Shown here: piece after piece, positions 42,035 through 59,412 of the stretch
Layout of the letters: each line of letters opens with the position of its first letter
Position numbering within the stretch: the first letter of the stretch is position 1
DNA from: Gammaproteobacteria bacterium
Lineage (GTDB): Bacteria > Pseudomonadota > Gammaproteobacteria > Steroidobacterales > Steroidobacteraceae
Direction of reading: 5' to 3'
Length of the DNA stretch: 64,000 nt
NCBI GenBank assembly: GCA_009926865.1
Contig: RFOD01000001.1
Coordinates: 1 to 64,000, forward strand
Position numbers and translations under genes: made by a program
Notes under the pieces: model-generated
What the model saw: only the letters and a program-made list of their open reading frames with translations
Database searches by the model: none
What the model was told of the DNA's origin: nothing

Positions 42035-43498
42035 TTAGCTGAGGCCTAGCCACGGAATGACCGTCAGTACCAAGACCGTGATCAGGACGGCTCCGATAAC
42101 ATCAAAGATCAGACCCGTGCGGATCATCCCAGCAATAGGCACTTGACCCGTCGAGTACACGAGCGCGTTTGAAGATGTCGCAGCAGGATTCGCAAAGCCG
42201 AGATTAGCGGCCATCGCTGCAGCCAGCGCGGCGATGACCGGATCATACCCTGCACCCAATGCGAGACTCGCGGCGATCGGCATAAAGATGGTTGCCGTGG
42301 CGACGTTGCTCGCGGCCTCGGTTATCAAGGCGCACATTAAGGCGATCGCTAAAATCATTGACCACACGGGGAGCCCGCTCACCGCCTCGAGCGCAGTCCC
42401 GAGCCATGCACTGAGCCCCGATTTGACCACCGCATCGGCGAGTGCCAGACCTCCACCGAGTAACAGAATGAGGTACCAAGGGGCGCGACGCGCCTCCCCC
42501 CAATCTAATAGTGGAATACTTTGGCCCTGAGCATCACGTTGACCGGACGGAAGAATACACACCAATAAAGCACCGGCCACCGCGATCCCCGCGTCAGTAA
42601 TTTTTGGAAATGCGGTCTGTAACACCGGTTGAAAAACCCAAGCCGCGGCCACTACACCGACGACTGCCAAGACTCGCCATTCGGGACCAGTGAGTGGCCC
42701 TGGGTCACCCAGGGCATCCCGAATCCGCTCTCGCGAGAGACTGGGTAGGTCAAATCGCAACGTCCATCGGGTCAAGACCCACCAACAAGCCGGGATTCCG
42801 AGCAACATAAATGGCACGCCGTAGGCCATCCAGTGCGCAAAGCTGATCTGTACATCAAAGGTACGATCAAGCACCCCTACCGCGATGGAATTAACTGGTG
42901 TCCCGATCGGGGTCGCAAAGCCTCCAATATTGGAGGCGAGCGAGACCGATAAGATCATCGCTGCGGCAAATTGTGCTTCGTTACGATTGCGATAGCGGGT
43001 CACACCTGCCGCATCCGCCTCCCCCGTCGTGACAACCGCTGCAAGGGTCGCCATCGCGATTGGTAGCATCATGACTGTAGTCGCCGAATTGTTAACAAAG
43101 AGCGACACCAATGCTGTCACATACATGACGCCGAGTAATAATGTCGCAGGCTGCGGGCTGATACGCGCGACGACGTAGACCGCAACCCGCCGATGCAAAT
43201 TCCATTTCTCAAAGGCGAGTCCGACCAATGAACCGCCGAGGATCAAAAATAACACCGGCGACATATATTGACTCGCTACACTTTGCGCAGAGCCGACATC
43301 GAGTAGCGGCAGGGCCAAAAACGGCAGGCTGCCCGTCAGCGTGACCGGGACGGCCTCGGTAAACCACCAGCACGCGATCAACAAGGTCAACGCGGCAACC
43401 CGCCAGCCCGCCTCAGAGAGCCCCTCTGGTGCAGGCGACAGCATCACCAAAGAAAAAAGGCAGAGACCCAACCAAAAACCCACTCGTTGCAGCATCAT
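42035..43498 (-). CDS. SLC13/DASS family sodium:carboxylate symporter
   Basis: Inner-membrane transporter of the divalent anion:Na+ symporter family, 487 residues with 11-12 hydrophobic segments. The two repeated substrate/sodium motifs are visible: SNIGGFATPIGTPVNS in the first half and the pair ITEAASNVATATIF / NPAATSSNALVYSTG in the second. Such carriers take up dicarboxylates, sulfate or related acids. It is the last gene of the leftward hydantoinase operon, 14 bases after the molybdenum enzyme gene. It could supply or export an acidic substrate or product of the pathway. Confidence 0.85.
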   Translation of the reverse strand: MMLQRVGFWLGLCLFSLVMLSPAPEGLSEAGWRVAALTLLIACWWFTEAVPVTLTGSLPFLALPLLDVGSAQSVASQYMSPVLFLILGGSLVGLAFEKWNLHRRVAVYVVARISPQPATLLLGVMYVTALVSLFVNNSATTVMMLPIAMATLAAVVTTGEADAAGVTRYRNRNEAQFAAAMILSVSLASNIGGFATPIGTPVNSIAVGVLDRTFDVQISFAHWMAYGVPFMLLGIPACWWVLTRWTLRFDLPSLSRERIRDALGDPGPLTGPEWRVLAVVGVVAAAWVFQPVLQTAFPKITDAGIAVAGALLVCILPSGQRDAQGQSIPLLDWGEARRAPWYLILLLGGGLALADAVVKSGLSAWLGTALEAVSGLPVWSMILAIALMCALITEAASNVATATIFMPIAASLALGAGYDPVIAALAAAMAANLGFANPAATSSNALVYSTGQVPIAGMIRTGLIFDVIGAVLITVLVLTVIPWLGLS

Positions 43499-43512
43499 GG
43501 AGGAAACCGAGC

Positions 43513-45675
43513 TTAGGCTAGAACGCCAAAGCTAAACCCTGATTCAATGATGGGTAGCCGCCGCGGTCGCTCGCCACAAGCCGCTTGGATCGCGCTCGCG
43601 AGCGCAGGCGCCACACCCGGTACGCTCGCTTCGCCTGCCCCGCCGCTCGCTGCATCGCTTTCGAGCAAGATCACCTCAATAGGCGGTATTTCGTTTAAAC
43701 GCAGGATCGGTGCATCATGAAAATTACTTTCGATCGCCGCGCCCTGCGCAAAGCGGATCTGACCGTGGATGGCGGCCGACAAGCCCCATACGATGCCGCC
43801 TGAGACCTGCGCCTCCACGTTGTGTGGGTCAATGATTTGGCCACAATCAAAAATGGTGACGCGCTTGTTGTCATCTACACTGACCTCGATCACTTCAGCA
43901 CAATAAGAGTCGTATCCCAGTGAAAGGGCGATGCCTCGCCCGCGACCCTTAGGGAGCGGCTCGCCCCAGTTCGCGGCCTCTGCCGCCTTGCGTAACACGC
44001 GCACCGCGCGAGGATCACCATCGGCTAACTGCAAACGCAAGGCCAAAGGGTCCTGCCCTGTGGCGTACGCGACATCATCGATCGCGCTCTCTGAGAAAAA
44101 TCCGTTCTGTGACTGGGAGACCGAACGCCACGTACCAACGGGAATGGGCTCGGGTGTTTCAACGTAGTCAACATATTGATTATCGAACGCGTAGTTTTCA
44201 TTGATCAGCATTCCGACAACAAACGGGTCTGCGCGCCCAGGAATCGGGCGTCGTCCTTGGTATCGCCACATACTGATCCCAGTCGTTCGACTGTGCATAC
44301 CCAGGATTTGACCCTTCGCATCAACCCCAACGCGGGTTCGCACCATATGCGCGGGGCGGAACCGATCGTGTCGCGTATCTTCCTCGCGCGACCACGTGAG
44401 CTTGATGGGCACCCCGGGGCGATATTTCGCGATCTCAGCAGCTTGGCGAACAAAGTCATTTTCCCATTTGCGACCAAAGCCGCCGCCCAAAAACGTGACG
44501 TGTAGGCGCACCTGCTCACGGGGCCGACCCGTGACCTCGGCGATGGCATCGCGGGCTCGATCTGGCTGCTGTGTCGGCGCCCAGACCTCAACCTCATCCT
44601 CACGCACGATGGCGGTCGCGCAAAGGGGCTCCAAGGCGGCATGCGCCAAAAATGGTACTTCATAGGTCCACGAGAATTGACGCTCCGCCGCTTCAATCGC
44701 GCGAAACGTCGTATCACGATCAAAGCGACCCTCCGCCGCCCGACGCCCCGCTTGCGCGGAGCCATCGTCGTCGAGAGCTTGAACCATGCGCGCACGGATC
44801 CCAATAGAGTCCAGCGTCGACACGTCACTGATATCGAACTCTACGTCCAGCGCGTTGGCGGCCTGTCTTGCCTGCCAGCTGTTCTTCGCGAGTACGGCAA
44901 CGCCGTCTTGTACGGCAAAGACATCCACGACCCCTGGTAGGTTGAGTGCCGATTGGGGGGAAAATCGAACCTGTTTTGAGATGACCTGTGGCGCGCGACG
45001 CAGCGCGGCATGCAACATACCTGGCAGCTTAACGTCGATCCCAAAGATCGCCGAGCCGTCGACTTTGGGTCCTGTATCTTTACGCGGCAATGATCGCCCA
45101 ATTAGAGTGAATTCTTTGGGGTCTTTCAGACGTGGCGATTCGGGAACAGGGCGCTTCGCAGCGTCCCCTGCTAAGGCTGCGAAATGGAGTGAGCGTCCCG
45201 TTGGCGCGTGCGTGACCACGGAGGCCGAGACACGACACTCTTCAGAGTTGACGGACCAGCGCTCTGCAGCCGTCGCGATGAGCATCTCTCGCGCCGCGGC
45301 ACCAAGCCGACGCAGTAAGTCATAGTAGATCTTGATCGATTCGCTACTGGCCGTGCGGTGGCGACGCGTGATCGGATTGATGTATGCATCATCGGCCATG
45401 GCGAGGCGAATCTGCACTTGCGCCCAATCTGCGCCCAATTCGTCGGCCAATATTTTGCTCAGGCCATCATGAACACCCTGCCCCATTTCAGATTGGGGGC
45501 AGGTAATGAACACACCGACATCGTTAATTTCAAGGTAGGCGTTAAAGACCCCGTCAGTGGCGTGATGAGGGGTCTCTCCGCCCCTATGAGCGAATGCCCA
45601 AGGCGACGTCTGTAACGCAATCGCGAGCCCGCCTGCAGCACCGACTCCTGCGCGTAAAAAATATCGTCGATCCAT
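43513..45675 (-). CDS. Molybdenum hydroxylase large subunit (IorB-like), Tat-exported
   Basis: Xanthine dehydrogenase-family molybdopterin-binding subunit, 720 residues, of the isoquinoline 1-oxidoreductase beta-subunit type. The N-terminus has a twin-arginine signal (DRRYFLRAGVGAAGGLAIAL). The Mo-cofactor regions include TCPQSEMGQGVHDGL, FLGGGFGRKWENDF and the catalytic-Glu motif GGAGEASVPG near the end. Such enzymes hydroxylate N-heteroaromatics or oxidise aldehydes. The 2Fe-2S small subunit and maturation genes normally beside it are absent in this window. It lies between the amidase gene (16 bases) and the transporter gene (14 bases). Confidence 0.83.
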   Translation of the reverse strand: MDRRYFLRAGVGAAGGLAIALQTSPWAFAHRGGETPHHATDGVFNAYLEINDVGVFITCPQSEMGQGVHDGLSKILADELGADWAQVQIRLAMADDAYINPITRRHRTASSESIKIYYDLLRRLGAAAREMLIATAAERWSVNSEECRVSASVVTHAPTGRSLHFAALAGDAAKRPVPESPRLKDPKEFTLIGRSLPRKDTGPKVDGSAIFGIDVKLPGMLHAALRRAPQVISKQVRFSPQSALNLPGVVDVFAVQDGVAVLAKNSWQARQAANALDVEFDISDVSTLDSIGIRARMVQALDDDGSAQAGRRAAEGRFDRDTTFRAIEAAERQFSWTYEVPFLAHAALEPLCATAIVREDEVEVWAPTQQPDRARDAIAEVTGRPREQVRLHVTFLGGGFGRKWENDFVRQAAEIAKYRPGVPIKLTWSREEDTRHDRFRPAHMVRTRVGVDAKGQILGMHSRTTGISMWRYQGRRPIPGRADPFVVGMLINENYAFDNQYVDYVETPEPIPVGTWRSVSQSQNGFFSESAIDDVAYATGQDPLALRLQLADGDPRAVRVLRKAAEAANWGEPLPKGRGRGIALSLGYDSYCAEVIEVSVDDNKRVTIFDCGQIIDPHNVEAQVSGGIVWGLSAAIHGQIRFAQGAAIESNFHDAPILRLNEIPPIEVILLESDAASGGAGEASVPGVAPALASAIQAACGERPRRLPIIESGFSFGVLA

Positions 45676-45691
45676 CGCCTATCGTCCTCGC

Positions 45692-46309
45692 TTATTGGCT
45701 ACCCCGAATCCAATTCTCGAGCTCTGTACGTTGCCGGACGTCAGCGTAACGGCGTCCCACATCGCGCAGGGTATCATCATGTGGTCCTTGTTCGGCGTCA
45801 CCACAACAGTCCGCCGCCACTTGCACCTTAAACCCATAGGAAAACGCATCCACAATCGTGGCTCGCACGCAACCGCTTGTAGTGCACCCGGCCACGACGA
45901 CGGTATCAACATTCTCCCGAACTAAAAATGTAATCAGTGGTGTCTGAAAAAACATCGATGGTGCATTCTTGCAGTAAGTGAAGTCACTGGCATGATGGAT
46001 TTTGGGATCCATCTGCGTGCACTCATGGCCATAAAAGAATTCTTTGCGCACGGCATCTACTTTCCACAATGGCATGTCTTTTTGACTGCAGTACGCCGTG
46101 TAGCAGGCTGCGACCGGAAGACCCTTCGAACGCGCCACCTCGAGCAGGCCCGCCGTCTGATCACGCGCCGCATGCAAGCGAGGTAACCCCCCCAGTGCGA
46201 ATCGTGGGTCGGTAAAGGCAAGCTGCCAATCCACGACTAACACGGCGGCCTTGCGACCAAACCCCACTTCGCCCGTCGAATATCCCACATCCACATATCG
46301 ATCTGTCAT
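45692..46309 (-). CDS. Isochorismatase-fold cysteine hydrolase 1 (N-carbamoylsarcosine amidase-like)
   Basis: 205-residue amidase of the isochorismatase/N-carbamoylsarcosine amidohydrolase fold. The triad is Asp27 in VLVVDWQ, Lys114 in TYCKNAPS and Cys147 in GCTTSGCVRA, with the cis-peptide stretch before the Cys. TADCCGDAEQGPH-like ADCCGDAEQGPH follows, typical of carbamoylsarcosine amidases. It is related to, but divergent from, the 213-residue enzyme at 53076. A terminator lies 27 bases before its start, so it is partly uncoupled from hyuB. Confidence 0.8.
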   Translation of the reverse strand: MTDRYVDVGYSTGEVGFGRKAAVLVVDWQLAFTDPRFALGGLPRLHAARDQTAGLLEVARSKGLPVAACYTAYCSQKDMPLWKVDAVRKEFFYGHECTQMDPKIHHASDFTYCKNAPSMFFQTPLITFLVRENVDTVVVAGCTTSGCVRATIVDAFSYGFKVQVAADCCGDAEQGPHDDTLRDVGRRYADVRQRTELENWIRGSQ

Positions 46310-46335
46310 GGCCTGTCCTTTAACAAAAAATGCTT

Positions 46336-46371
46336 AAAAAAAAGTCCCCGATCCGCGAGGAACGGGGACTT
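46336..46371 (-). terminator. Intrinsic terminator after hyuB
   Basis: On the leftward strand a 9-bp perfect stem (46363-46371 with 46342-46350, 12-base loop) is followed by an uninterrupted T-run to 46336. It sits between hyuB and the amidase gene, only 27 bases before the amidase start, so downstream genes need read-through or a promoter inside the hairpin region. Confidence 0.88.
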
Positions 46372-46422
46372 CGATCAGCAACTTCAGCGCCGGTTCGTCC
46401 CGCGCTGTCGCCGCGGCAGCCC

Positions 46423-48339
46423 TTAGGCTGCCTTGGCGCCTTTCTTCTTGGCCATGGCTTCTGCAGCCACCTTCGCCCACTTCGTGAAGCGTGGCTGCAT
46501 CGGCGGCTCAAAGCCAGTTTCGGCTTTACAGCGAGACTTGAGCTCTTCGATTGACTCGAAGCCGCGGTCAAAGATTTTCTTCTTGCCGCGTTTGCTCGCC
46601 ATGCTCTTACGCAGGCTCGCTGTGGCCGCTTCATCGATATTACCGTCGGCATCCACCACGACGCCGTAGCGACGTGCGCCCTCGACCGAGACGAGACCCG
46701 CTACCACATCGAAGGCCACCAGACTGGCATCGCGCTCGAGTGGGTCACCCCAGCCGCCGCCGCCCCAGGTGTCGGCAATCAATAGATCGCCTGCTTCGAC
46801 CTTCACATGATCGATTTTCGACGGGAGCAGTTCCTCGGTACCGTCCGCACGCTGCAGGAGCTTACGGCTACGAGCGCCCGGCTCACCGCCATTGGCGCCC
46901 CACGGGTAAGTGAGCCAACGATCATCGTGGATGGAGATTTCACCGGGCTCCAAGAAGCGATAGCCGATTCGCAGGCCATTACCGCCGCGATGCTTACCGG
47001 CGCCACCGGTATCCACGATGGTTTCGTAGATATCGATCCGCAGCGGGAAGTAGCTCTCAAGGAATTCGTTCGGGACGTTGGTGAACGACGGCCACAGCGA
47101 ATGACCATCGGGACCGTCGCCGAAGGGTTTGCCTGGGATTCCACCGAACGTGATCTGGTAAAGCTGATACCACTCGCCATTCTTGTCGTAACCCGAGTAC
47201 ATGAAGTGCGGGCTGTCCGAGAAGCCAGCGCCACACATGAAATCGGGGTTACCCTGACCCAACAAGCCCGCTAGGATGTCAAAGATACGACCCAAAGCGT
47301 GGGTACGGCACGAGAGCGCCGCCGGCTTCAGCGGCTTCAGTAGCGTTCCAGGCGGGATACGGACTTCCATGAGGTCATAGAAGCCGTCGTTAAAGAGGAT
47401 CTGCGGGTCAAACACCATGATCATGTAGATGCCCGCGAACATCTTGAACATTTCTTCGTTCAACAAGAAGTTAATCGAAGAAATCGACTGGGGATCGGTG
47501 CCCTGAAAATCAAAGATGCACTTGTCGCCTTCACGCCACATGCTGCACTTGATACGGTACGGACCCATGTTGAGGCCGTCATCGCAAATGTAATCTTCGA
47601 AGTGCTGCTTCGTTTCCGGCACGTTTTGGCGAATCAAGGCCCGCATCGCACGCTTATTACGATCGAGCATCGCATCCATGGCGGAGTAGAACACGTCGTC
47701 GCCAAAACGCTCGGCAATCTCGATACAACGCGTGGATGCAGTACGCAGCGCCGCGGTGATGGCGTTGAAGTCCGACAGGTTCCAGTGCGGCAGACGGCAG
47801 TTGTGCAGGACCACTCGCAAGACGTCTTCATTGAGCTGACCGCCTTTGAAGATCTTGACGGGTGGCACCACGATGCCATCTTCATAGATCGTCGTCCCAT
47901 CGGTCGGCAAGGAACCGGGCACCTTACCGCCTACGTCGGTCATATGGCCGAACATGGCGGTCCAAGCAATGATTCGACCATCGCGATAGACGGGCATCAA
48001 CATCAACCAGTCATTGGCGTGACTGATGGCGCCATTGACCGAGTACGGATCGGACGTCAAAAAGATATCGCCCTCTTCGACCGTGCCGTCATAGCCTTGC
48101 ATGAAGCCCCAGATGAAGGAGCCGAACTGCCCGACGACCATTTTGCCGTCGGTGTTGGCGATCATCGGGAACTCGTCGTGCTGTTCGCGAATGCCGGGTG
48201 ACATCGCGGTTCTAAACAACACCGTGTCCATTTCATAGCGCGCATTACGCAGCGCGCTCTCAATGATATCGATTGTGACGGTGTCCACCTTCGTCTTTTT
48301 GAAGGCCTTCTTATTGCGCTGAACGATTGTTGCAGGCAT
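46423..48339 (-). CDS. hyuB: Hydantoinase/oxoprolinase B-type subunit
   Basis: Beta subunit of an ATP-dependent cyclic-amide hydrolase (N-methylhydantoinase B, 5-oxoprolinase) or of an acetone-carboxylase-like enzyme. 638 residues. Family signatures are GIREQHDEFPM, LTSDPYSVNGAISHANDW, GGAGKHRGGNGLRIGYRF and DTWGGGGWGDPLERD. The C-terminus ends in a short basic stretch (KKKGAKAA). The ribosome site AAGGAAA is clear. It follows hyuA after 41 bases. The substrate could be a hydantoin, lactam or other cyclic amide. Confidence 0.85.
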   Translation of the reverse strand: MPATIVQRNKKAFKKTKVDTVTIDIIESALRNARYEMDTVLFRTAMSPGIREQHDEFPMIANTDGKMVVGQFGSFIWGFMQGYDGTVEEGDIFLTSDPYSVNGAISHANDWLMLMPVYRDGRIIAWTAMFGHMTDVGGKVPGSLPTDGTTIYEDGIVVPPVKIFKGGQLNEDVLRVVLHNCRLPHWNLSDFNAITAALRTASTRCIEIAERFGDDVFYSAMDAMLDRNKRAMRALIRQNVPETKQHFEDYICDDGLNMGPYRIKCSMWREGDKCIFDFQGTDPQSISSINFLLNEEMFKMFAGIYMIMVFDPQILFNDGFYDLMEVRIPPGTLLKPLKPAALSCRTHALGRIFDILAGLLGQGNPDFMCGAGFSDSPHFMYSGYDKNGEWYQLYQITFGGIPGKPFGDGPDGHSLWPSFTNVPNEFLESYFPLRIDIYETIVDTGGAGKHRGGNGLRIGYRFLEPGEISIHDDRWLTYPWGANGGEPGARSRKLLQRADGTEELLPSKIDHVKVEAGDLLIADTWGGGGWGDPLERDASLVAFDVVAGLVSVEGARRYGVVVDADGNIDEAATASLRKSMASKRGKKKIFDRGFESIEELKSRCKAETGFEPPMQPRFTKWAKVAAEAMAKKKGAKAA

Positions 48340-48380
48340 GGGAATTTCCTTTAGTTAAATACGTGTTAGGTCAGCGTGAT

Positions 48381-50585
48381 TTACTTGCGGGCCTTCTTGG
48401 CCTTTTTGCCTTTGGCGGGCTTAGCTACTTTGGCTTTGCTCGCTTTGGCCTTCGCAGCCGGCTTCGCCTTTTTCGCAGCAGGCTTTTTGGCCGCTGATTT
48501 TTTTGGCGTTGGTTTTTTGCTCGCTGGCTTGTAGTTATCGGGGTAAATCAACAGGCAGCTCGAACCATCCACCACTGCCGTATGTTTTGGCAGTACCACC
48601 GTGGTCGAGTCCATTTCCATCACGATGGCAGGACCGGCAACCTTGTTGCCCGTCTTGAGTTTCGCGCGGTCATAGACGATGGCCGTGACATCTTTGCCAT
48701 CCATGAAACACTTCTGCTTGCCAACGGCAGCCGCCTTGGGATCGCTTCCGCCCTTGGCGAGGGGTGGGCGCTTGATCTTGATGCCCTGCCCTTGCACCGT
48801 GGCACGCAGGGTCACGACTTCGTGCTCGAGCGGCAGGGCAAACGTGAAGAGCCGCTTGTGCTCTTCATCAAACTGATCGGAGATCGCTTTGAGCCCTTTC
48901 GCCTGCAAATCTTTGAGGCTGAGTTCAACCGTCAAACGCAGACCCTGCCCATGGTAGCGCAGGTCAACCTGATAGCTGGTGCGGATCTCAGCCTTCGGCA
49001 CGCCCTCTTCGATCAATGCCTTCGCAGCGTCTTTGGCCAATTCCTTAAGAATCTTCTCCACTTCCTTCGCACTGGTGTCGGAGAACTTCGCTACGAATGT
49101 GCGAGCGCGCTCATCGCGAACGGCCGTCGTCGCATCGCCCAAGGCACACAATACGCCGGGACCCGGCGGGATGATCGATGGCCATGAGCCAAGCAGCTTG
49201 GACAGTGCATTCGCATGAATCGGGCCAGCGCCACCAAAAGCGATGAGTGCATAGTCGCGCGGGTCGTAGCCCTGCTCGACCGACACTAGGCGCAAGGCAC
49301 CTACCATGTTTTCATTGACAATGTTGTAGATGCCCAGTGCCGCCGCTTTGGTCGTTAAACCCAGTGCGTCACCGACTTTCTTGACGGCTGCGTGGGACAG
49401 ATCACGCTTGAGTTCCATGTCGCCGCCGAGCTTCTGCATCTCTGGCAAGTAACCAAGAACGATATTGGCGTCTGCCACCGTAGGCTCCGTGCCGCCGCGA
49501 TCATACGCAGCAGGACCCGGATCGGCGCCCGCTGATTGGGGACCGACACGCAGTGCTTTGGTCAGTTCGGGTACGTGGGCGATCGAGCCACCGCCCGCAC
49601 CGACGGTACGAATATCTACCGAAGAGGCGCGCACGATCACGTCACCCACTGTGGTTTCACGACGCAGCCGAGGCTCACCGCCTTGGATTAACGCCACGTC
49701 CGTCGAAGTGCCGCCCACGTCAACCGTGAGCAGATTCGGGAAACCTGCCTGCATGGCGACCCATACGGCGCCCGTCACGCCTCCGGCCGGCCCTGACATC
49801 AACAGGTTGACCGGGTATTCAGCGGCCGAGCTCGCTGACGCCAAACCGCCATCCGAGCGAAGAATATGCAGCTTCACGTCTTCGGCGATGTGCGCCAACT
49901 TATCTTTTAAGTTTTTGACGTACCGATCCACGCGTGGGCGCACGTAGGAGTTCGCAACCGTCGTGACGGTGCGCTCGTACTCCTGCATTTCTGGCACTAC
50001 ATCCGAAGAGACAGACACCGGCGTATCCGGGAGCTCTTCCTGGGCGATTTCGCGAACGCGATGCTCATGCGCAGGATTCGCAAATGAGTTGATCAAAGAA
50101 ACCGTCAAAGCTTCGATGTTCTGCTCTTTGAGTTTACGCAAGCTCTTGCGCAGGGCTTTCTCGTCCAGCGCTTTGACGATCTCGCCCTTGGCGCTCACGC
50201 GCTCAACCGCTTCGATCGTGCACGCGAGCGGCGCCATCGGCAAAGACTTGTTGTAGATGATCCAGCCGCCAAGCCCCCCTGGAACGTAGGAGCGTGCGAT
50301 CTGCAGCACCTGCCGATACCCCTGAGTCGTGACGAGCCCCACTCGCGCACCGGTACCGGTCAAGACCGTATTGGTCGCCACGGTCGTGCCGTGCATCACG
50401 TGTTCGATTGCAGTCGGGTCGATGCCCGCGCGCTCACAGACTTTGGTGATGCCATTTAAAACGCCGATCGACTGATCGGCAGGCGTTGAGGGCACTTTGG
50501 CAGACCATGTCTGGCCAGACTTTTCATGAACGAGCAGCAGGTCGGTAAACGTGCCGCCAACATCTACACCCAAGCGATATGACAT
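48381..50585 (-). CDS. hyuA: Hydantoinase/oxoprolinase A-type subunit with Lys/Ala-rich tail
   Basis: ATP-binding alpha subunit pairing with HyuB, 734 residues. Actin-like ATPase motifs include GVDVGGTFTDLLLVHE, MHGTTVATNTVL, LMSGPAGGVTGA, VDVGGTSTDVALI and FGGAGPIHANAL. The enzyme part ends near residue 685 (VVDGSSCLLIYPDNY). The final 49 residues are almost only Lys, Ala and Pro in AKKPAAKK-like units, an unusual histone-H1-like extension. AGGGGG gives a strong ribosome site, and a terminator hairpin lies 25 bases upstream. The gene is downstream of the lyase on the same strand. Confidence 0.86.
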   Translation of the reverse strand: MSYRLGVDVGGTFTDLLLVHEKSGQTWSAKVPSTPADQSIGVLNGITKVCERAGIDPTAIEHVMHGTTVATNTVLTGTGARVGLVTTQGYRQVLQIARSYVPGGLGGWIIYNKSLPMAPLACTIEAVERVSAKGEIVKALDEKALRKSLRKLKEQNIEALTVSLINSFANPAHEHRVREIAQEELPDTPVSVSSDVVPEMQEYERTVTTVANSYVRPRVDRYVKNLKDKLAHIAEDVKLHILRSDGGLASASSAAEYPVNLLMSGPAGGVTGAVWVAMQAGFPNLLTVDVGGTSTDVALIQGGEPRLRRETTVGDVIVRASSVDIRTVGAGGGSIAHVPELTKALRVGPQSAGADPGPAAYDRGGTEPTVADANIVLGYLPEMQKLGGDMELKRDLSHAAVKKVGDALGLTTKAAALGIYNIVNENMVGALRLVSVEQGYDPRDYALIAFGGAGPIHANALSKLLGSWPSIIPPGPGVLCALGDATTAVRDERARTFVAKFSDTSAKEVEKILKELAKDAAKALIEEGVPKAEIRTSYQVDLRYHGQGLRLTVELSLKDLQAKGLKAISDQFDEEHKRLFTFALPLEHEVVTLRATVQGQGIKIKRPPLAKGGSDPKAAAVGKQKCFMDGKDVTAIVYDRAKLKTGNKVAGPAIVMEMDSTTVVLPKHTAVVDGSSCLLIYPDNYKPASKKPTPKKSAAKKPAAKKAKPAAKAKASKAKVAKPAKGKKAKKARK

Positions 50586-50609
50586 GCGCCCCCCTATGGG
50601 CTCTTGTTC

Positions 50610-50641
50610 AAAAAAACACGATCGCAGTGCGACTGCGATCG
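50610..50641 (-). terminator. Intrinsic terminator between lyase gene and hyuA
   Basis: A perfect 10-bp stem (CGATCGCAGT, loop of 3, ACTGCGATCG, 50619-50641) is followed on the leftward strand by a T-run (50611-50616). It lies 12 bases after the lyase stop and 25 bases before the hyuA start. This would sharply reduce or condition transcription into hyuA. Confidence 0.9.
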
Positions 50642-50652
50642 AACCAAAAAAA

Positions 50653-51564
50653 TTAAGCCGCGAGTTGCGCTGGCGGGAAGTTACCCGCCTTTAGCAGCAT
50701 CGCAGGTAGTGTACGTCCCAGCTTCTGCTGCAACCATTCACTCACCGCCAGTAGAGCGGGTAAATCTACCCCAGTCTCGACGCCCGCCCGACCCAGCATA
50801 TACACCAGATCCTCGGTGGGGATATTACCCGTCGCCGCCGGCGCGAACGGACAGCCGCCGATTCCGCCCACGCTACAATCTAGCGCATTTACACCGGCTT
50901 GGACGGCAGCATAAGCGTTGGCGAGCCCTGTGTTACGGGTATTGTGGAAGTGGGCCCGCAGGCGGACACCCGGCAAACGCTGTCGAGCCCCTTCGATAAT
51001 TTCACTCACTTGCCACGGCACGCCGACCCCGACCGTGTCGGCAAAGGAGATTTCATGTGGCTCACCCTCGGCGACCCGCTCGGCCACTTCAAGCACCCGG
51101 GCCACGGAGATCTCGCCCTCGAATGGGCACCCAAAAGCGGTCGCGACCGTGACCTGCGCGCGAACCCCCGCTTCCCGTGCCGCGCGTGCGATGTCGAGCC
51201 ATGCAGCGATCGACTCGTCGGTCCCGACACCTTGGTTACGACGATTAAATGTGTCGCTACTCACGACTGCCATACCGACTTCATTACAGCCTGCGGCCAC
51301 CGCACGCTCAAAGCCTTTGCGGTTGAGCACCAAGCCGATGTAGTGCACGTCTTGGCGTTTTCGCAGTCCCGCCAAAACCGCTTCAGCATCGGCCATCTGC
51401 GGAACTTTTTTCGGATTCACAAAGCTCGTGATTTCAAGACGCCGCAAACCCGCATCGATCAATTGCTCGATCAGTCGAATTTTATCTTCGGTGGGAAATA
51501 CCCCTGGCTCACTCTGCAATCCATCACGAGGGCCCACTTCAACAATTTCGACAGTTCGCGACAT
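50653..51564 (-). CDS. HMG-CoA lyase-like enzyme
   Basis: DRE-TIM metallolyase, 303 residues from the ATG at 51564, which follows GAGG; an ATG 27 bases earlier has no such site. Catalytic features are EVGPRDGLQ (Arg, Asp), ISFADTVGVG, the metal His pair in AHFHNTRNTG and the mobile Cys loop GGIGGCPFAPAATGN. True 3-hydroxy-3-methylglutaryl-CoA lyases usually have HCHDTYG, so this belongs to a variant group and may cleave another 3-hydroxyacyl-CoA. It leads the leftward operon, divergent from a CaiB-type CoA-transferase that could provide its thioester. Confidence 0.8.
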   Translation of the reverse strand: MSRTVEIVEVGPRDGLQSEPGVFPTEDKIRLIEQLIDAGLRRLEITSFVNPKKVPQMADAEAVLAGLRKRQDVHYIGLVLNRKGFERAVAAGCNEVGMAVVSSDTFNRRNQGVGTDESIAAWLDIARAAREAGVRAQVTVATAFGCPFEGEISVARVLEVAERVAEGEPHEISFADTVGVGVPWQVSEIIEGARQRLPGVRLRAHFHNTRNTGLANAYAAVQAGVNALDCSVGGIGGCPFAPAATGNIPTEDLVYMLGRAGVETGVDLPALLAVSEWLQQKLGRTLPAMLLKAGNFPPAQLAA

Positions 51565-51848
51565 GCTGACCTCAGTGTCATTCGACAACATACTTGCATG
51601 CTAAGGCATGCGCAAAACGAGACCGCCGATTCTAGCAACATCGCCGGACGAGGCAACGCGTGAGCCCATAAGGAAACGACCGCTGCGTGTACTGCGTGAT
51701 GGGTGCCGCGCTCGCACGCGCATCGGCTATTCTTGACCGGCGCGCTCGTGCTCGGTACAAGAGCCGGCCGCTGAGCGATGACCTCGGCGCCTTGCGCAAC
51801 CACTTTACATAACGTTTAACCACTGACGATACATTCACGAGGATACCC
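51565..51848. promoter_or_regulatory. Divergent promoter region of the hydantoinase island
   Basis: This 284-base space separates the leftward and rightward halves of the island. It contains a perfect palindrome GCATGC-TAAG-GCATGC at 51596-51611, flanked by TT and CAA that extend the symmetry loosely, close to the lyase start. On the rightward side TTTACA at 51804-51809 is a possible -35 but lacks a good -10. No open frame here looks coding. Confidence 0.4.
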
Positions 51849-53063
51849 ATGGCTGCCGATCCCAGTTTTAAACGCGGACCCCTTTCCGACCTGCGCGTCA
51901 TCGAGCTCGGCACCTTGCTCGCGGGCCCCTTTTGCGGACAGCTGTTAGGCGATATGGGCGCCGAGGTCATTAAGATCGAGCCGCCTGGACAGGGTGACCC
52001 TCTACGTGTGTGGGGCCGACAAAAGGCGGGCGAACCGTCGCTATGGTGGCCCGTTGTCGCGCGTAATAAAAAGGCGATTACGTTGAACATGCGTGAAGCT
52101 GAAGGTCAGAGTATTCTCAAGGAGTTAGTGAAGGAAGCTGATTTTTTACTTGAGAATTTTCGCCCTGGCACGATGGAAAAATGGGGTTGCGGATATGAGG
52201 AGCTCAGCAAGATCAATCCGCGCTTGATCATGATCCGTGTGTCGGGGTACGGACAAACAGGCCCGTATTCGCATCGTGCTGGCTTCGGCGCGATTGGCGA
52301 GGCCATGGGTGGACTACGTTATGTGGTGGGTGACCCCTCCACCCCACCCTCACGCATGGGGATCAGCATTGGCGATGAGCTGGCAGCAACCTTCGCTTGT
52401 CTCGGCGCCTTAGGAGCACTCCACTACCGCGAAAAGACGGGGCGTGGTCAGGTTGTCGATTCGGCGATCTACGAAGCCGTCCTCACCATGATGGAATCGG
52501 TCGTCACGGAATACGACAAGACCGGTCATATTCGCGAGCGTACGGGCGCGATTTTGCCCAACGTCGCCCCCTCGAATGTGTACAAAACAGATGACGGCTT
52601 GGTGCTGATCGCTGCGAACCAGGACACCGTGTTCGGGCGGCTTTGTGACGCGATGGGGCAAAAGGAATGGCCCAAAGATCCGCGCTTTGTGAATCACCAA
52701 GCGCGCGGCAGCAACCAACAGCTACTCGATGGACTCATCGAAGCATGGACTAAAACACTTTCCACGAAAGAGGTTTTAGCGTTAATGGATGAATACGGCG
52801 TACCGGCAGGCCAAATCTATCGCGCCCCAGAAATGTTGGAGGATCCGCACTTTAAAGCGCGCGAGGCGATTGTCGAGACGGATCACCCCTATTTCGGAAA
52901 ACTACGCATGCAGAATACGGCACCGAAGTTTTCTGAGACACCGGGCGGGATTCATAGCTCAGCGCCCACCGAGCTCGGCGAGCACAACGATGAGGTGTAT
53001 AGCCGACTGCTTGGCTACACCGCCGAGCGGCTGGCGGCCTTGCGCGACGCTAAAATCATCTAA
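51849..53063 (+). CDS. CaiB/BaiF family CoA-transferase
   Basis: Family III CoA-transferase, 404 residues, moving CoA between carboxylic acids through a mixed anhydride on Asp176 (GISIGDELAA). Other signatures are LRVIELGTLLAGPFCGQ near the N-terminus, GAEVIKIEPPGQGDPLR, LENFRPGTMEKWG, RVSGYGQTGPY and YGVPAGQIY. It probably activates a carboxylic acid in the island pathway, for instance for the divergently encoded lyase. 12 bases precede the amidase gene. Confidence 0.88.
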   Translation: MAADPSFKRGPLSDLRVIELGTLLAGPFCGQLLGDMGAEVIKIEPPGQGDPLRVWGRQKAGEPSLWWPVVARNKKAITLNMREAEGQSILKELVKEADFLLENFRPGTMEKWGCGYEELSKINPRLIMIRVSGYGQTGPYSHRAGFGAIGEAMGGLRYVVGDPSTPPSRMGISIGDELAATFACLGALGALHYREKTGRGQVVDSAIYEAVLTMMESVVTEYDKTGHIRERTGAILPNVAPSNVYKTDDGLVLIAANQDTVFGRLCDAMGQKEWPKDPRFVNHQARGSNQQLLDGLIEAWTKTLSTKEVLALMDEYGVPAGQIYRAPEMLEDPHFKAREAIVETDHPYFGKLRMQNTAPKFSETPGGIHSSAPTELGEHNDEVYSRLLGYTAERLAALRDAKII

Positions 53064-53075
53064 GAGGTCGCTACG

Positions 53076-53717
53076 ATGTCCGAGTCCTTGCAACAGAACT
53101 ATGAGCGAGGCGGCTTCAATAAGTCGCTGCAGCCGGGCTCCCGTCCCGCCCTGCTGATCATCGATTTCGTCGAAGCCTACCTCAACCCGGCTTCACCACT
53201 GTATGCCGGTGTGGAGCAGGCTCGTGATGATGCCGTGCGGCTATTGCAGGCCTCTCGCGCGGCGCGCATCCCGATCATTCATACCAACGTCGTCTATCAG
53301 CCAGGCGGTCGTGACGGCGGGGTGTTTTTCCGCAAAGTTCCCGCGCTGAGCTGTTTCGAAGCCGGCGCCCACCCCGACTGGGCGGCCTTCGCCAAGGGTT
53401 TGGAGCCCCTCGCGGGCGAAACCATCATTTCCAAGCAGTATGCCAGTGCCTTCTTTGGTACCTCGCTTGCTCCAACGCTGACGGCTTTAGGGATCGATAC
53501 CGTGCTGATTGCGGGTCTCTCGACCAGTGGGTGTATACGCGCGAGCGCGGTCGATTGCTGCCAGCACGGCTTCATACCCATTGTGGTTCGCGAAGCGGTA
53601 GGAGATCGGGCCGCAGGACCACATGAGTCGAACTTATTTGATCTACAAGCCAAATATGCCGAGGTCATGTCACTGACTACCGTTTTGGGTTACTTAGGGG
53701 GCGTGCGTGAGTCATAA
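53076..53717 (+). CDS. Isochorismatase-fold cysteine hydrolase 2
   Basis: 213-residue enzyme with triad Asp30 (LLIIDF), Lys120 (IISKQYASAF) and Cys153 (GLSTSGCIRASAVD). The fit to N-carbamoylsarcosine amidase-like hydrolases is strong, including REAVGDRAAGPHE. It is the second such enzyme in the island. Copy 1 is on the other arm. Its stop overlaps the GTG start of the VOC gene by 11 bases, so the two are translationally coupled. Probable role: removal of a carbamoyl or amide nitrogen from a ring-opened intermediate. Confidence 0.82.
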   Translation: MSESLQQNYERGGFNKSLQPGSRPALLIIDFVEAYLNPASPLYAGVEQARDDAVRLLQASRAARIPIIHTNVVYQPGGRDGGVFFRKVPALSCFEAGAHPDWAAFAKGLEPLAGETIISKQYASAFFGTSLAPTLTALGIDTVLIAGLSTSGCIRASAVDCCQHGFIPIVVREAVGDRAAGPHESNLFDLQAKYAEVMSLTTVLGYLGGVRES

Positions 53718-54615
53718 CACTTCGACGATTGGACCGATTCGTTGCGTCACCATCGCCTGCGCGGATGTGCAGACGATGATCGACACCTATCATTTGTTTT
53801 TAGGCTATCAGCTTGTGGAGCACGGCAAGCTCACGCCGGCTCACGCTCAAATCTGGGGACTCCCAAACATGGGCGGTCGCCGTTACGCGTTGATGTTGCC
53901 GGGTGGCGAAGGTATTACCGCCATCCGATTCGTGGAGAGTAAGGCGCCAACGGGCTATGTCGCTTTCAAACACATGGGCTGGAATGCCGCCGAGTTTATG
54001 GTGCAAGATACCGACGGTATCGCTGCGAAGCTCGAGCACTCACCGTTCAAAATTATTGGGCCGCCCGCCGATTTGTCCTTTTCCGACAAAATTCGCGCCA
54101 TGCAGGCACTTGGGCCAGCCGGTGAATCAATTTATCTGACTTCCTTCAAAGAAAAATTACCTGAGTTTGACACCCCAGACCCGAAGCATTACGTCGATCG
54201 TGTGTTCATCGTCATTTTGGGCGGCGAGTCCTGCGCGCAGATCAACGATTTTTATCACCAACATTTTTCCGTTCCGAAGGCGCCGGTGGTGCCCGGCGTC
54301 ATCAGCGTGATCTCGAACGCGCATGGGCTGCCGTCGGATACGCCCCACGAACTTGCAGCACTCGCGCTTAAGGGCCAGTCGTTCATTGAAGCCGATCACA
54401 TGCCCGCAGGGACCCTACCCCGCGTCGCACTGGAGGGCGAGTTGCCCCCTGCGATTTCCATGATCAGCTTTGAAGTTGATCGCTTACCCGAGTCTGAATA
54501 TCTTCGATGGCTCGCGCCGCCCGCCGTGCTCACAGGCGAGCCATACCAGGGACGTCGCGCTGGTGTTTGTCTCGGCAGCGCTGGCGAGTGGATTGAGCTA
54601 ATCGAGCGCAGCTAA
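53707..54615 (+). CDS. Two-domain VOC protein, copy 2
   Basis: 302 residues, the same length as its paralogue at 15799-16707, with shared motifs AMQALGPAGE, VDRVFIVILGG, GLPSDTP, GELPPAISMISF and EPYQGRRAGV. Two glyoxalase-like modules can be drawn around residues 5-130 and 150-290. Few metal-ligand His/Glu positions are conserved between the copies. GTG start at 53707 inside the amidase gene. Function unknown; possibly a lyase, isomerase or binding protein for a pathway intermediate. Confidence 0.68.
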   Translation: MSHNTSTIGPIRCVTIACADVQTMIDTYHLFLGYQLVEHGKLTPAHAQIWGLPNMGGRRYALMLPGGEGITAIRFVESKAPTGYVAFKHMGWNAAEFMVQDTDGIAAKLEHSPFKIIGPPADLSFSDKIRAMQALGPAGESIYLTSFKEKLPEFDTPDPKHYVDRVFIVILGGESCAQINDFYHQHFSVPKAPVVPGVISVISNAHGLPSDTPHELAALALKGQSFIEADHMPAGTLPRVALEGELPPAISMISFEVDRLPESEYLRWLAPPAVLTGEPYQGRRAGVCLGSAGEWIELIERS

Positions 54616-54646
54616 AGCTGCAGCGACGACGAGGACGAGTACAAAG

Positions 54647-55003
54647 ATGACTGATCCGACTCACTCCACCCGCATCGAACCTCCCCGGCTACCCAAGGGT
54701 CACCGCCCCCAAATCTTTGATGATCAGGGTGTGGATCAGTTGCATGCGGCTTATGTCACGCTTGCGACTGAACTTGCGGTCGCTTTTGAGCGCATTGATA
54801 CGCTGGAGCGTCTACTGATCCAGAGAGTTGGATTGACGGCTGATGACATTCAGTCGGCAGCTGCCGATCCCTCGCAGGCCGCGCAACGAATGGCTCGTCA
54901 AACCGAATTGGCAGAGCGCTTGCTTAAACCCTTTAAAGACTTCCGCGAGCATCACATTGCCAGCGGTCCAGGTGGCATTGCCGACTCGACTAAGGATGCT
55001 TAA
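54647..55003 (+). CDS. Small helical protein, paralogue of 56395-56859
   Basis: I do not recognise this 118-residue family. It begins with a disordered Pro-rich part, then LPKGHRPQIFDD, followed by long amphipathic helices (LATELAVAFERIDTLERLLIQR, written here in two parts: LATELAVAFERI and DTLERLLIQR) and LTADDI. The same order of motifs is found in the 154-residue protein beyond the methyltransferase gene. The helices suggest an oligomerising or scaffold protein. It starts 31 bases after the VOC gene. Confidence 0.6.
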   Translation: MTDPTHSTRIEPPRLPKGHRPQIFDDQGVDQLHAAYVTLATELAVAFERIDTLERLLIQRVGLTADDIQSAAADPSQAAQRMARQTELAERLLKPFKDFREHHIASGPGGIADSTKDA

Positions 55004-55158
55004 GCGGGGCGGTTTCAACCACCATTCGGACACACCCGCGAAGCTGCGTTGCTGGCTGTTAAGCACTCGTTAGGATGGTGGTACCCCTTCCCCGGTCGGG
55101 TGCGACGACAGCGCGCTGATGGGTCCTTGCTGGGTCTATTCTCACTGAGTGGAGATCG

Positions 55159-56382
55159 ATGATGAGCCCCTTTCAACAACATTCGATGCTTCCCGATACA
55201 GTTCATGACGAGCAAGCTCGACAAGATTTTGTCGCTGCCTTTAGAGGACATCTTTCCGGGCAACTGATGCCCGGCACCTATCAAGTGTATAGCAAACGGG
55301 TGGAGCCCCGGTTTACGCGTGAGAAGGGCCGCGTACCTGCTGATGAACACGAAGTTCGCGCACTGATGACGCAGGACTCGTTTTATCAATTTTGGAGTGC
55401 AATGCAGCGACGAAGTCAGGAACTACTGTGGGAGGCGGTGATCGACCCCGTCGAACGAGAGTTGCCTTCACTGATCGAGCGCGCCAAGCGCCCTCCCAAG
55501 CGAGGTCAGTCCGCAGGTAGCCTGCGTTTGAACCCTGACTTGGTTGTCCCTCGCTATCACACCGCGGCAGATATCCATCTGCAACCCGGTGGCTATCACA
55601 GTGATTTTACGCGCGACGATGTCGCTGCCGGTGCGGTGTATGACAAAGGGATCAACCTCTACATGGGAGGCGCACTGGGTCCCCAAAATAATCTAATGGG
55701 AGATACGCTGCTGGCCTACCTGCGGGAGTATCACCCGACGTTCAAGCCCAAAAGAATTCTCGATATGGGCTGTGCCATCGGCAACAGCACTGTTGTATGG
55801 GCGAAGGCCTTTCCTGACGTCGAGGTCCATGGTATCGATGTCGGCGCTCCTGTCTTGCGCTACGCACACGGCCGTGCCCAAGCATTGGGCGCTAAGGTTC
55901 ACTTTAGTCAACAGAATGCTGAAGCGACGGATTTTGAGAGCGGTAGTTTTGATCTTGTATTGAGTCACATCGTTTTGCACGAAACCTCAAAGTCTGCGTT
56001 GGTACGTATTCTCGCCGAGTGTCGACGATTATTGCGACCGGGTGGCTTGATGCTGCATTTGGAAATTCCGCGCGGTCGTACCGCTATGGAAAAATTCATG
56101 CATAACTGGGAGAGCTATAACAACAACGAAACCTTCTCTCGGTACATGACCGACCTGGATCTGGCCGCTGAATCACGTAAAGCGGGTTTTCAGTCGAACG
56201 AGGTCACGGTCAGCGAATTTGCGCCGAAACTGAACGTTTCGCAGATGAACTATGCCGAGCACTTCTTTTGGAAAATTTTAGCAGGCACCAACTTGTCCCA
56301 GTTGAAATTGAATCGCGAATCTCGGTCTAAATCAAAAAGTGCTAAGCGCGCGAACTCACGCCGTCGCAACAAGTCGTCCTAA
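55159..56382 (+). CDS. Class I SAM-dependent methyltransferase with long N-terminal domain and basic tail
   Basis: 407 residues. The Rossmann methyltransferase core begins near residue 198 with motif I ILDMGCAIGNST and acidic VHGIDVG. VLSHIVLHETS and LLRPGGLMLHLEIP follow. About 195 residues precede it, an unusually long region of unknown fold (YQVYSKRVEPRF, NLYMGGALGPQNNLMGD). The last 20 or so residues are Lys/Arg/Ser-rich. Start is ATGATG after GTGGAG. It lies between the two small paralogous proteins, so all three probably work together. Methyl acceptor unknown. Confidence 0.72.
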   Translation: MMSPFQQHSMLPDTVHDEQARQDFVAAFRGHLSGQLMPGTYQVYSKRVEPRFTREKGRVPADEHEVRALMTQDSFYQFWSAMQRRSQELLWEAVIDPVERELPSLIERAKRPPKRGQSAGSLRLNPDLVVPRYHTAADIHLQPGGYHSDFTRDDVAAGAVYDKGINLYMGGALGPQNNLMGDTLLAYLREYHPTFKPKRILDMGCAIGNSTVVWAKAFPDVEVHGIDVGAPVLRYAHGRAQALGAKVHFSQQNAEATDFESGSFDLVLSHIVLHETSKSALVRILAECRRLLRPGGLMLHLEIPRGRTAMEKFMHNWESYNNNETFSRYMTDLDLAAESRKAGFQSNEVTVSEFAPKLNVSQMNYAEHFFWKILAGTNLSQLKLNRESRSKSKSAKRANSRRRNKSS

Positions 56383-56394
56383 GGAGAATTCATC

Positions 56395-56859
56395 ATGGCT
56401 CGACCCCGCACAGCGCGCACTACGCATGCCAGGAAAGGTGCCAAACGCTCCCGGAAGGTCAGTACAAAGGCTCGGTCCAAGAACGCCGCGGCGACTGCGG
56501 GGACAGCGGCACCTTCACCCGCTCGCCTACCTCGCATTGCTAAAGGTAAAAAACCCCAGTACTTCACCGACCCAGCGACCGATAAGTTATTGTGGATGAC
56601 GCTGACCCTGATGGAAGAATTGTCCGTCACCCGTGACCGCCTGGATACCGTCGAGCGGCTACTCGCAAAGCGCCGGGTGCTAACACTCAAAGATATCGAG
56701 ACCTGGAAACCAGACGATCGTGCAGCAACTGAGCGTGCAACACGGCGCGCGGCTTACGTGGATCGGATGATGCGCGCAATTCACCGTGAGCTCGAAGAAC
56801 TCACCCGCGGCGATATGCCCGCCACCGAGGCCGAGGTCATCGCCGCGGTAGAGTCTTAG
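56395..56859 (+). CDS. Small helical protein with basic N-terminus, paralogue of 54647-55003
   Basis: 154 residues. The first 40 are Arg/Lys/Ala-rich and disordered. Then come RIAKGKKPQYFTD, helices with EELSVTRDRLDTVERLLAKR and LTLKDIE, matching the 118-residue protein in order and spacing. The final 40 residues are acidic-basic helical (ELEELTRGDMPATEAEV). It starts 12 bases after the methyltransferase stop and ends 12 bases from the convergent TPR gene. Function unknown. Confidence 0.6.
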   Translation: MARPRTARTTHARKGAKRSRKVSTKARSKNAAATAGTAAPSPARLPRIAKGKKPQYFTDPATDKLLWMTLTLMEELSVTRDRLDTVERLLAKRRVLTLKDIETWKPDDRAATERATRRAAYVDRMMRAIHRELEELTRGDMPATEAEVIAAVES

Positions 56860-58104: not shown

Positions 58105-58129
58105 CGATGTTTAACCCCCAAAAGCCGCC

Positions 58130-59341: not shown

Positions 59342-59373
59342 GACTTTCCTCTCAACCTCTAGGGCTAAAGCCC

Positions 59374-59412
59374 ATAAAGAAAATCGCCGCACCCTCGCGG
59401 GGATACGGCGAT
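59374..59412 (-). terminator. Terminator-like hairpin between exbD and the TPR genes
   Basis: On the leftward strand ATCGCCG (59406-59412) pairs with CGGCGAT (59383-59389), with additional inner G-C pairs, followed by the T-rich ATTTTCTTT. The TPR start is at 59341. It could partly reduce TPR expression relative to exbD. Confidence 0.6.

Follow-up and report, generated by a model that had tools for sequence, protein, structure and literature searches.

A conserved divergent gene island in a Steroidobacteraceae genome, probably a catabolic cassette for small cyclic amide-type compounds

The window analysed here comprised 64,000 nucleotides of a gammaproteobacterium of the family Steroidobacteraceae (GenBank assembly GCA_009926865.1, contig RFOD01000001.1, positions 1 to 64,000 of the forward strand), and it contained an island of genes in which a two-subunit hydantoinase-type hydrolase (HyuA and HyuB, together HyuAB) was combined with two amidases (Ami1 and Ami2), a CoA-transferase (CaiB) and a C–C lyase (HMGL). 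The genome was 2.3 Mb in 103 contigs, and its assembly was 96.87% complete; isolate names suggest lakes as the habitat of its closest relatives. The island was composed of 12 open reading frames at positions 42035–56859, six on the minus strand and six on the plus strand, flanking a 257-base spacer. All 12 were found where an earlier reading of the sequence alone (the sequence-only reading) had placed such a divergent island. Most of the gene names were backed by Pfam or NCBIfam profile matches of the island proteins (Table 1).

Table 1. Positions of the island features in the window and the evidence for each assignment
Feature	Position	Strand	Evidence
DASS/SLC13 sodium-coupled anion carrier (accessory)	42035..43498	-	TIGR00785, 203.4 bits, cut-off 198.6
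IorB-like molybdenum hydroxylase large subunit, molybdopterin-binding (MoCoBD) (accessory)	43513..45675	-	PF02738/PF20256
Ami1, isochorismatase-type amidase	45692..46309	-	PF00857
HyuB, metal-dependent hydrolysing subunit (core)	46423..48339	-	PF02538, 467.9 bits
HyuA, ATP-dependent activating subunit (core)	48381..50585	-	PF01968/PF05378/PF19278
HMGL-family C–C lyase (core)	50653..51591	-	NF004283 HMG-CoA lyase subfamily, 326.9 bits, cut-off 246
Divergent promoter spacer	51592..51848		sigma-70-like pair (+), in 9 of 11 genus spacers; promoter-like site (-)
CaiB, family III CoA-transferase (core)	51849..53063	+	PF02515, 422.7 bits
Ami2, isochorismatase-type amidase (core)	53076..53717	+	PF00857; nearest N-carbamoylsarcosine amidohydrolase
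Two-module glyoxalase-fold (VOC) protein	53707..54615	+	AlphaFold model and Foldseek
sm1, small protein, unnamed multi-copy family	54647..55003	+	related to sm2
S-adenosylmethionine (SAM) methyltransferase, N-terminal helical domain	55159..56382	+	PF13649 and others; AlphaFold pLDDT 86.8
sm2, small partner of methyltransferase	56395..56859	+	one of 15 family copies in genome

The gene set was compared at orthologs of HyuA with about 10 kb on each side, contig permitting. The sample contained 17 ortholog loci within the genus and 14 beyond it (L045–L057 and L059), which were the best HyuA matches and not a random draw. Presence was counted over loci whose contig reached the gene, and partial genes at contig ends were scored as present. 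Within the genus, HyuA was 82–90% identical in 16 of the 17 loci, and the 17th was a partial match of 75%. The left arm contained HMGL in 15/15, Ami1 in 14/14, the SLC13 carrier in 11/12 and the IorB-like gene in 10/13 loci. The right arm contained CaiB in 14/14, Ami2 in 13/13, VOC in 13/13, the methyltransferase and sm2 each in 10/12 and sm1 in 6/12 loci. Beyond the genus, HMGL was present in 14/14, CaiB in 12/13, Ami2 in 9/12 and VOC in 6/12 loci, and the IorB-like gene and the carrier were found at none of the 10 loci (of 14) that reached at least 3 kb past HyuB. From these counts, HMGL–HyuA–HyuB on one side of the spacer and CaiB–Ami2 on the other form a five-enzyme core, to which the outer genes have been added. 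The search for conserved co-occurrence that the sequence-only reading had proposed thus found both arms kept together, and the core arrangement recurred in the genus and in the order.

For the wider spread, one genome per species was scanned and the best 80 HyuB relatives were taken. The controls were more distant HyuAB paralogs in related genomes, with HyuA 30–39% identical across 23 loci. For a neighbourhood census, HyuB had to be flanked by 6 kb or more of sequence on either side; 43 ortholog and 16 control loci qualified, and short flanks excluded the other 37 and 7, respectively. A family was counted by tblastn at E ≤ 1e-5. The HMGL and CaiB families both lay within 6 kb of HyuB at 27/43 ortholog loci versus 0/16 control loci, and HMGL, CaiB and an amidase did so together at 16/43 versus 0/16. 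Taken singly, HMGL was found at 32, CaiB at 30, an amidase at 24 and VOC at 21 of the 43 loci, with 0/16 controls for each. Within the order, HyuB orthologs (E ≤ 1e-180) were present in 98/196 genomes.

The core was also found together in contigs of named Gammaproteobacteria and of some Alphaproteobacteria, and the same five enzymes were grouped on plasmids from three genera, Acidiphilium, Novosphingobium and Geobacillus (five regions inspected among 916 matching records). By database names, the plasmid of Acidiphilium multivorum JZ-6 carried GntR, HMGL, CoA transferase, HyuA, HyuB and isochorismatase, and that of Novosphingobium capsulatum carried GntR, HMGL, HyuA, HyuB, CoA transferase and 'N-carbamoylsarcosine amidohydrolase'. 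The order on the plasmid of Geobacillus sp. Y412MC52 was isochorismatase, HyuA, HyuB, CoA transferase, HMGL, an IS701 transposase, leuC and leuD. The plasmid copies were 50–66% (HyuB), 57–67% (CaiB), 43–54% (HMGL) and 44–60% (Ami2) identical to the window proteins. In Novosphingobium PP1Y, the core was complete except that no amidase was detected.

The closest solved match of HyuA was N-methylhydantoinase (7hk5, 467 bits), followed by caprolactamase (6yra, 396 bits), and the same two enzymes matched HyuB with 235 and 208 bits, respectively. The motifs DxGGTFTD, DxGGT and GxxPGP and a metal tetrad belong to the ATP-dependent hydrolases of this type, as described for caprolactamase in the available text of PMC8453981. 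In HyuA, the phosphate motifs were present as DVGGTFTDL at residue 8 and DVGGTSTDV at residue 289, and the adenosine motif as GADPGP at residue 353. The metal tetrad of HyuB (Asp55, His107, Asp110, and His132) was aligned with the metal site of CapB and was invariant in 12/12 orthologs.

The Asp-Lys-Cys triad is characteristic of isochorismatase-type amidases of the N-carbamoylsarcosine/RutB-like kind. It was invariant in both amidases, as Asp27, Lys114, and Cys147 of Ami1 in 33/33 sequences (at least 57% identity) and as Asp30, Lys120, and Cys153 of Ami2 in 50/50 sequences (at least 52% identity). The nearest solved structure of Ami2 was N-carbamoylsarcosine amidohydrolase (26st, 155.7 bits), and those of Ami1 were the isochorismatase-family hydrolases 4l07 and 4l08, then N-carbamoylsarcosine amidohydrolase. 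The equivalog cut-offs of RutB and biuret amidohydrolase were missed, with 21–35 bits versus 370–378.

CaiB matched PF02515 over the full length of the profile (1–366 of 366), scored below every NCBIfam equivalog cut-off searched, and was 57–89% identical among orthologs near HyuAB. Residues Arg22, Asp23, Glu53, Asp185, His214, His216, Cys247, and Asn256 of HMGL were invariant in 52/52 sequences (at least 56% identity). The catalytic positions were aligned with human HMGL, and the residues presumably share its catalytic roles. The motif HFHNTRN of the island enzyme differed from HCHDTYG of the human enzyme; therefore, the acyl group acted on may also differ. Intact active sites were thus observed for HyuAB, both amidases and HMGL.

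On this gene content, the island is probably a cassette for the catabolism of a small cyclic compound of the amide type (ureide, imide or lactam), with the five-enzyme set as its core. HyuAB would activate the ring with ATP and hydrolyse it, and the amide or carbamoyl nitrogen exposed in this way would be taken off by one or both of the amidases. CaiB would then transfer CoA to the resulting carboxylic acid, and the HMGL-type lyase would split a β-hydroxyacyl-CoA by retro-Claisen cleavage, with acetyl-CoA and a keto acid as the products. Within the genus, the carrier and the VOC protein may be helpers. The order of the steps, the substrate class, the products and the roles of the carrier and the VOC protein are what we infer from these assignments. 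The sequence-only reading had taken the whole island as one pathway unit; this held for the hydantoinase, amidase, CoA-transferase and lyase, which were conserved across taxa, and was not supported for the hydroxylation by the IorB-like protein and for the methyltransferase and small proteins, as described below.

Several known systems resemble parts of this scheme. The sequence-only reading had compared the island with the creatinine route (N-methylhydantoin to sarcosine), and the comparison was apt, since N-methylhydantoinase and N-carbamoylsarcosine amidohydrolase were the solved structures nearest to HyuA, HyuB and Ami2. Unlike that route, the island has HyuA and HyuB as separate chains followed by a CoA-transferase and a C–C lyase, and no creatinine deaminase or sarcosine enzyme was found among the annotated neighbours at the three plasmid loci. 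In the nicotinate (Nic) and pyrimidine (Rut) routes, an isochorismatase-fold amidase acts after ring opening, and some related loci had a protein resembling RutA and hydrolases distantly resembling RutD. Unlike in these routes, the ring would be opened by ATP-dependent HyuAB, and no RutA- or RutD-like gene was among the 12 island genes. The caprolactamase CapAB of Pseudomonas jessenii is likewise a two-subunit ATP-dependent ring hydrolase with the same ATP motifs and metal tetrad, whereas the island subunits scored 546.4 and 198.3 bits versus the CapAB equivalog cut-off of 1000 for each subunit and have a CoA-transferase and a lyase as neighbours. CoA transfer with later cleavage of a β-hydroxyacyl-CoA to acetyl-CoA and a keto acid is shared with the itaconate and citramalate C5-dicarboxylate routes, in which the available text of PMC6689899 describes a CoA-transferase and a citramalyl-CoA lyase of the CLYBL/malyl-CoA-lyase-like type. 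Compared with that description, the island lyase is of the HMGL type, and ring-opening and amidase genes are added. No paper on the combined set or a named route was found among open-licence PubMed Central papers. Every core enzyme family is already known; it is their union in one conserved module that was not found in the papers searched.

Related loci showed variations of the set. In Halieaceae and Luminiphilus loci, HyuAB occurred with a different CaiB, an amidase, an α/β hydrolase and HpaB- and TauD-like genes (by eye), and locus L098 contained, as a further ring-opening enzyme, a monooxygenase resembling RutA (373.8 bits, cut-off 498). In some alphaproteobacterial loci, a methylisocitrate-lyase-like protein, and so a C–C lyase of another kind, lay near HyuAB and the amidase (L120; 276.8 bits, cut-off 354), and in L137 a PrpD-family protein lay near HyuAB. 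These loci are possibly a CoA-free variant of the same logic. The thread common to the related loci is hydrolysis of a ring or amide, then a C–C lyase. A YrdC-like protein accompanied HyuAB and the amidase in L120, L134, L137 and other alphaproteobacterial loci (by eye).

Several observations weigh against the proposed cassette. CaiB was absent in L117, L118, L123, L126 and L131, and HyuAB of Sphingomonas JE1, at a locus with a methyltransferase and a small-protein gene, had no CaiB or HMGL within 10 kb; therefore, not all members perform every step. An amidase lay within 6 kb in only 24/43 ortholog loci. Most of the 80 ortholog loci belong to Proteobacteria that are related to one another, which makes the counts non-independent. 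In addition, the nearest solved relatives of CaiB use several different acids (substrates taken from the molecule names), and the evidence points to a class of substrate only.

It is unlikely that CaiB and HMGL are an independent hydroxymethylglutarate or citramalate unit beside an unrelated nitrogen-scavenging hydantoinase. In favour of such a unit, CaiB resembled SUGCT (222 bits), and HMGL scored above the HMG-CoA lyase subfamily cut-off. The genome also encodes a second HMGL, 41% identical to the island enzyme, in a cluster at C1:96492–101983 (L150:12492–17983), about 40 kb from the island, with a LeuCD-like hydratase, CaiB and an acyl-CoA dehydrogenase. No HyuAB match was found in the 20-kb stretch surrounding this cluster; therefore, such pairs can stand alone. 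Against this reading, the CaiB/HMGL pair stayed with HyuAB, in varying gene order, in Gammaproteobacteria, Alphaproteobacteria and Bacillota and was present at none of the 16 paralogous HyuAB loci.

As for the substrate of the proposed cassette, we slightly favour a ureide or an imide over a lactam. The matches to N-methylhydantoinase, N-carbamoylsarcosine amidohydrolase and allantoinase-type enzymes speak for a ureide, and the LeuCD-type genes for an imide. In the 10 loci of the order's family f7, CaiB lay ahead of HyuA and HyuB wherever the contig reached (9 loci). A GntR-type gene followed HyuB in L194, L198 and L199 (by eye). In L194, the next gene encoded a cyclic amidohydrolase, again a further ring-opening enzyme, whose nearest families were allantoinase, with 229 bits against a cut-off of 358, and dihydropyrimidinase, with 196 bits, and an amidohydrolase of this type was also found in L077 and L134 (by eye and by clustering). 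Ami2 and HMGL followed in six of the f7 loci (L197–L202); L194–L196 instead had a second set, of HMGL, CaiB and LeuCD-like genes, 6.5–7.7 kb after HyuB, and the cluster at C1:96492–101983 is the window genome's own copy of this second set. The window genome has an ortholog of the L194-type amidohydrolase on contig C18 (57 and 66% in two segments), and GntR-, IclR-, UbiD-like, methyltransferase and maleate-isomerase-like genes lie near it (L207; by eye).

Chlorophyll and haem are sources of alkyl maleimides, and a bolder, improbable version of the scheme is that the module degrades alkyl-substituted cyclic imides such as maleimides by a pathway not yet described and has spread, in part on plasmids, through aquatic, soil and thermophilic bacteria. 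HyuAB would open the imide, the amidase would yield an alkylmaleate, and a LeuCD-type hydratase would convert it to an alkylmalate, which CaiB and the HMGL-type lyase would split to give acetyl- or acyl-CoA plus a keto acid. The LeuCD genes lie past an insertion sequence in Geobacillus (about 2.7 kb after HMGL, past the IS701 transposase), several kb away in L194–L196 and elsewhere in the window genome, where another LeuC lies at C1:68 kb. A LeuC-like gene was present in 71/98 genomes with HyuB versus 10/98 without (Fisher p ~1e-19). This link by presence was discounted, since the small-protein family of sm1 and sm2, whose copies lie mostly elsewhere in the window genome, was associated as strongly (60/98 versus 6/98). 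Shared ancestry therefore explains much of the association, and the physical linkage of LeuC alone was retained.

It is very unlikely that HyuAB is an acetone- or acetophenone-type carboxylase converting a ketone to a β-keto acid that CaiB and HMGL then activate and cleave, with the amidases unrelated. The HyuAB family includes both hydrolase and carboxylase activities, acetophenone carboxylase subunits matched HyuA and HyuB with 322 and 139 bits, and acetophenone is broken down via carboxylation to benzoylacetate according to the available text of PMC5214803. However, the hydrolases scored clearly higher for both subunits (467/396 and 235/208 bits), and the carboxylase reading was set aside. 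The acetophenone carboxylase cut-off of 1500 was missed by HyuA (ApcC, 345.1 bits) and HyuB (ApcD, 137 bits), amidases lay near HyuB in 24/43 loci versus 0/16 controls, and no third carboxylase subunit was found among the annotated neighbours in the three plasmid loci (Acidiphilium, N. capsulatum, and Geobacillus).

The sequence-only reading had the IorB-like protein hydroxylate an N-heterocycle as the first step, before HyuAB opens the ring. The gene lay in the same operon direction in 10/13 genus loci, and the protein, whose closest solved chain was the large subunit of an aldehyde dehydrogenase (8gy3_C, 174 bits), kept the GGGFGR motif and the C-terminal GE motif, both with roles that we presume for this protein. 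The product of an unpaired IorA-like [2Fe-2S] gene at C61:3572–4069 (L155) could be the partner of one among several IorB-like proteins in the genome. Against the proposed step, the protein diverged faster (mostly 55–67% identity in the genus), and its start bears a motif like that of twin-arginine translocation (Tat) signals (RRYFL in the window, with an RR pair in relatives). The protein is therefore apparently Tat-exported and would be in the periplasm, apart from HyuAB. No [2Fe-2S] subunit adjoined the gene, and the genome had only two Fer2_2 matches, on contigs C8 and C61. Further IorB-like genes are present in the genome but only two IorA-like genes. The unpaired IorA (at least 74% identity, full length) was absent from six genus genomes having IorB (at least 55%, full length), or eight when partial IorB matches were counted, and was present in two without IorB, or four with partial IorA matches, so that the two genes co-occurred only in part. 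Since the gene was absent in 3/13 genus loci, and its product is apparently Tat-exported and lacks an iron–sulphur partner alongside, the IorB-like protein is accessory to the module. The gene was also not found at any of the 10 loci beyond the genus that reached at least 3 kb past HyuB, and hydroxylation as the first step is very unlikely. An IorB-like gene fragment with two internal stop codons, probably a remnant, was present at C1:112828–113442.

That the five enzymes stay together in Gammaproteobacteria, in some Alphaproteobacteria and on a plasmid of Geobacillus points to a compound that is common in the environment. Each of the core enzyme types is well understood by itself, so direct assay should be able to find the substrate, and named strains with the set are Novosphingobium capsulatum HAMBI_0103, Geobacillus sp. 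Y412MC52 and Acidiphilium multivorum JZ-6.

The methyltransferase and small proteins had been read as parts of the pathway, and were found instead to be one copy of a module repeated across the genome. The proteins sm1 and sm2 belong to one family; sm1 had no Pfam match at E ≤ 1, and sm2 was likewise without a Pfam family. The family has 15 copies in the 2.3-Mb genome and was found in 66/196 genomes of the order, with up to 19 copies. Among the 13 copies outside the window (L156–L168), 11 were near a methyltransferase homolog, 10 adjacent and one across a transporter-like gene, and two (L159 and L161) had none nearby. The repeated module consists of a SAM methyltransferase (its N-terminal part of about 190 residues) and a small protein of about 100 residues, and is a separate unit sited here, outside the core. 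No specific methyltransferase function was assigned; Foldseek gave many methyltransferases, none specific, with a best query template-modelling (TM) score of about 0.42 among the best 50 listed.

The VOC protein matched no family at E ≤ 0.001, with a Glyoxalase/VOC match below the cut-off (E 0.0098). Its AlphaFold model (pLDDT 95.8) had a two-module glyoxalase fold, for which the best Foldseek match was maize glyoxalase I (6bnz, TM 0.66/0.71). The fold was clear, yet no reaction was assigned because no histidine was invariant among 27 homologs.

In the spacer, a sigma-70-like pair, TTGACC-17-TACAAG, was located on the plus strand at 51733–51761 (TTGACC at 51733–51738 and TACAAG at 51756–51761). 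The pair was present in 9/11 aligned genus spacers, the window included, and the GTACAA part in 11/11. A stricter promoter scan did not call this plus-strand pair, and called one opposite-facing site on the minus strand at 51656–51629 (1 found versus a mean of 0.1 in shuffles).

Lys/Ala/Pro-rich tails were present at the C-terminus of HyuA and the methyltransferase and at the N-terminus of sm2. Many relatives were without such tails, and some carried comparably long ones on HyuA (L089, 808 residues) or HyuB (L098). Two tandem, mutually related TPR proteins, encoded on the minus strand at 56872–59392, adjoin the island in many genus loci, and a MotA/ExbB-like gene lies past them at 60434–61159.

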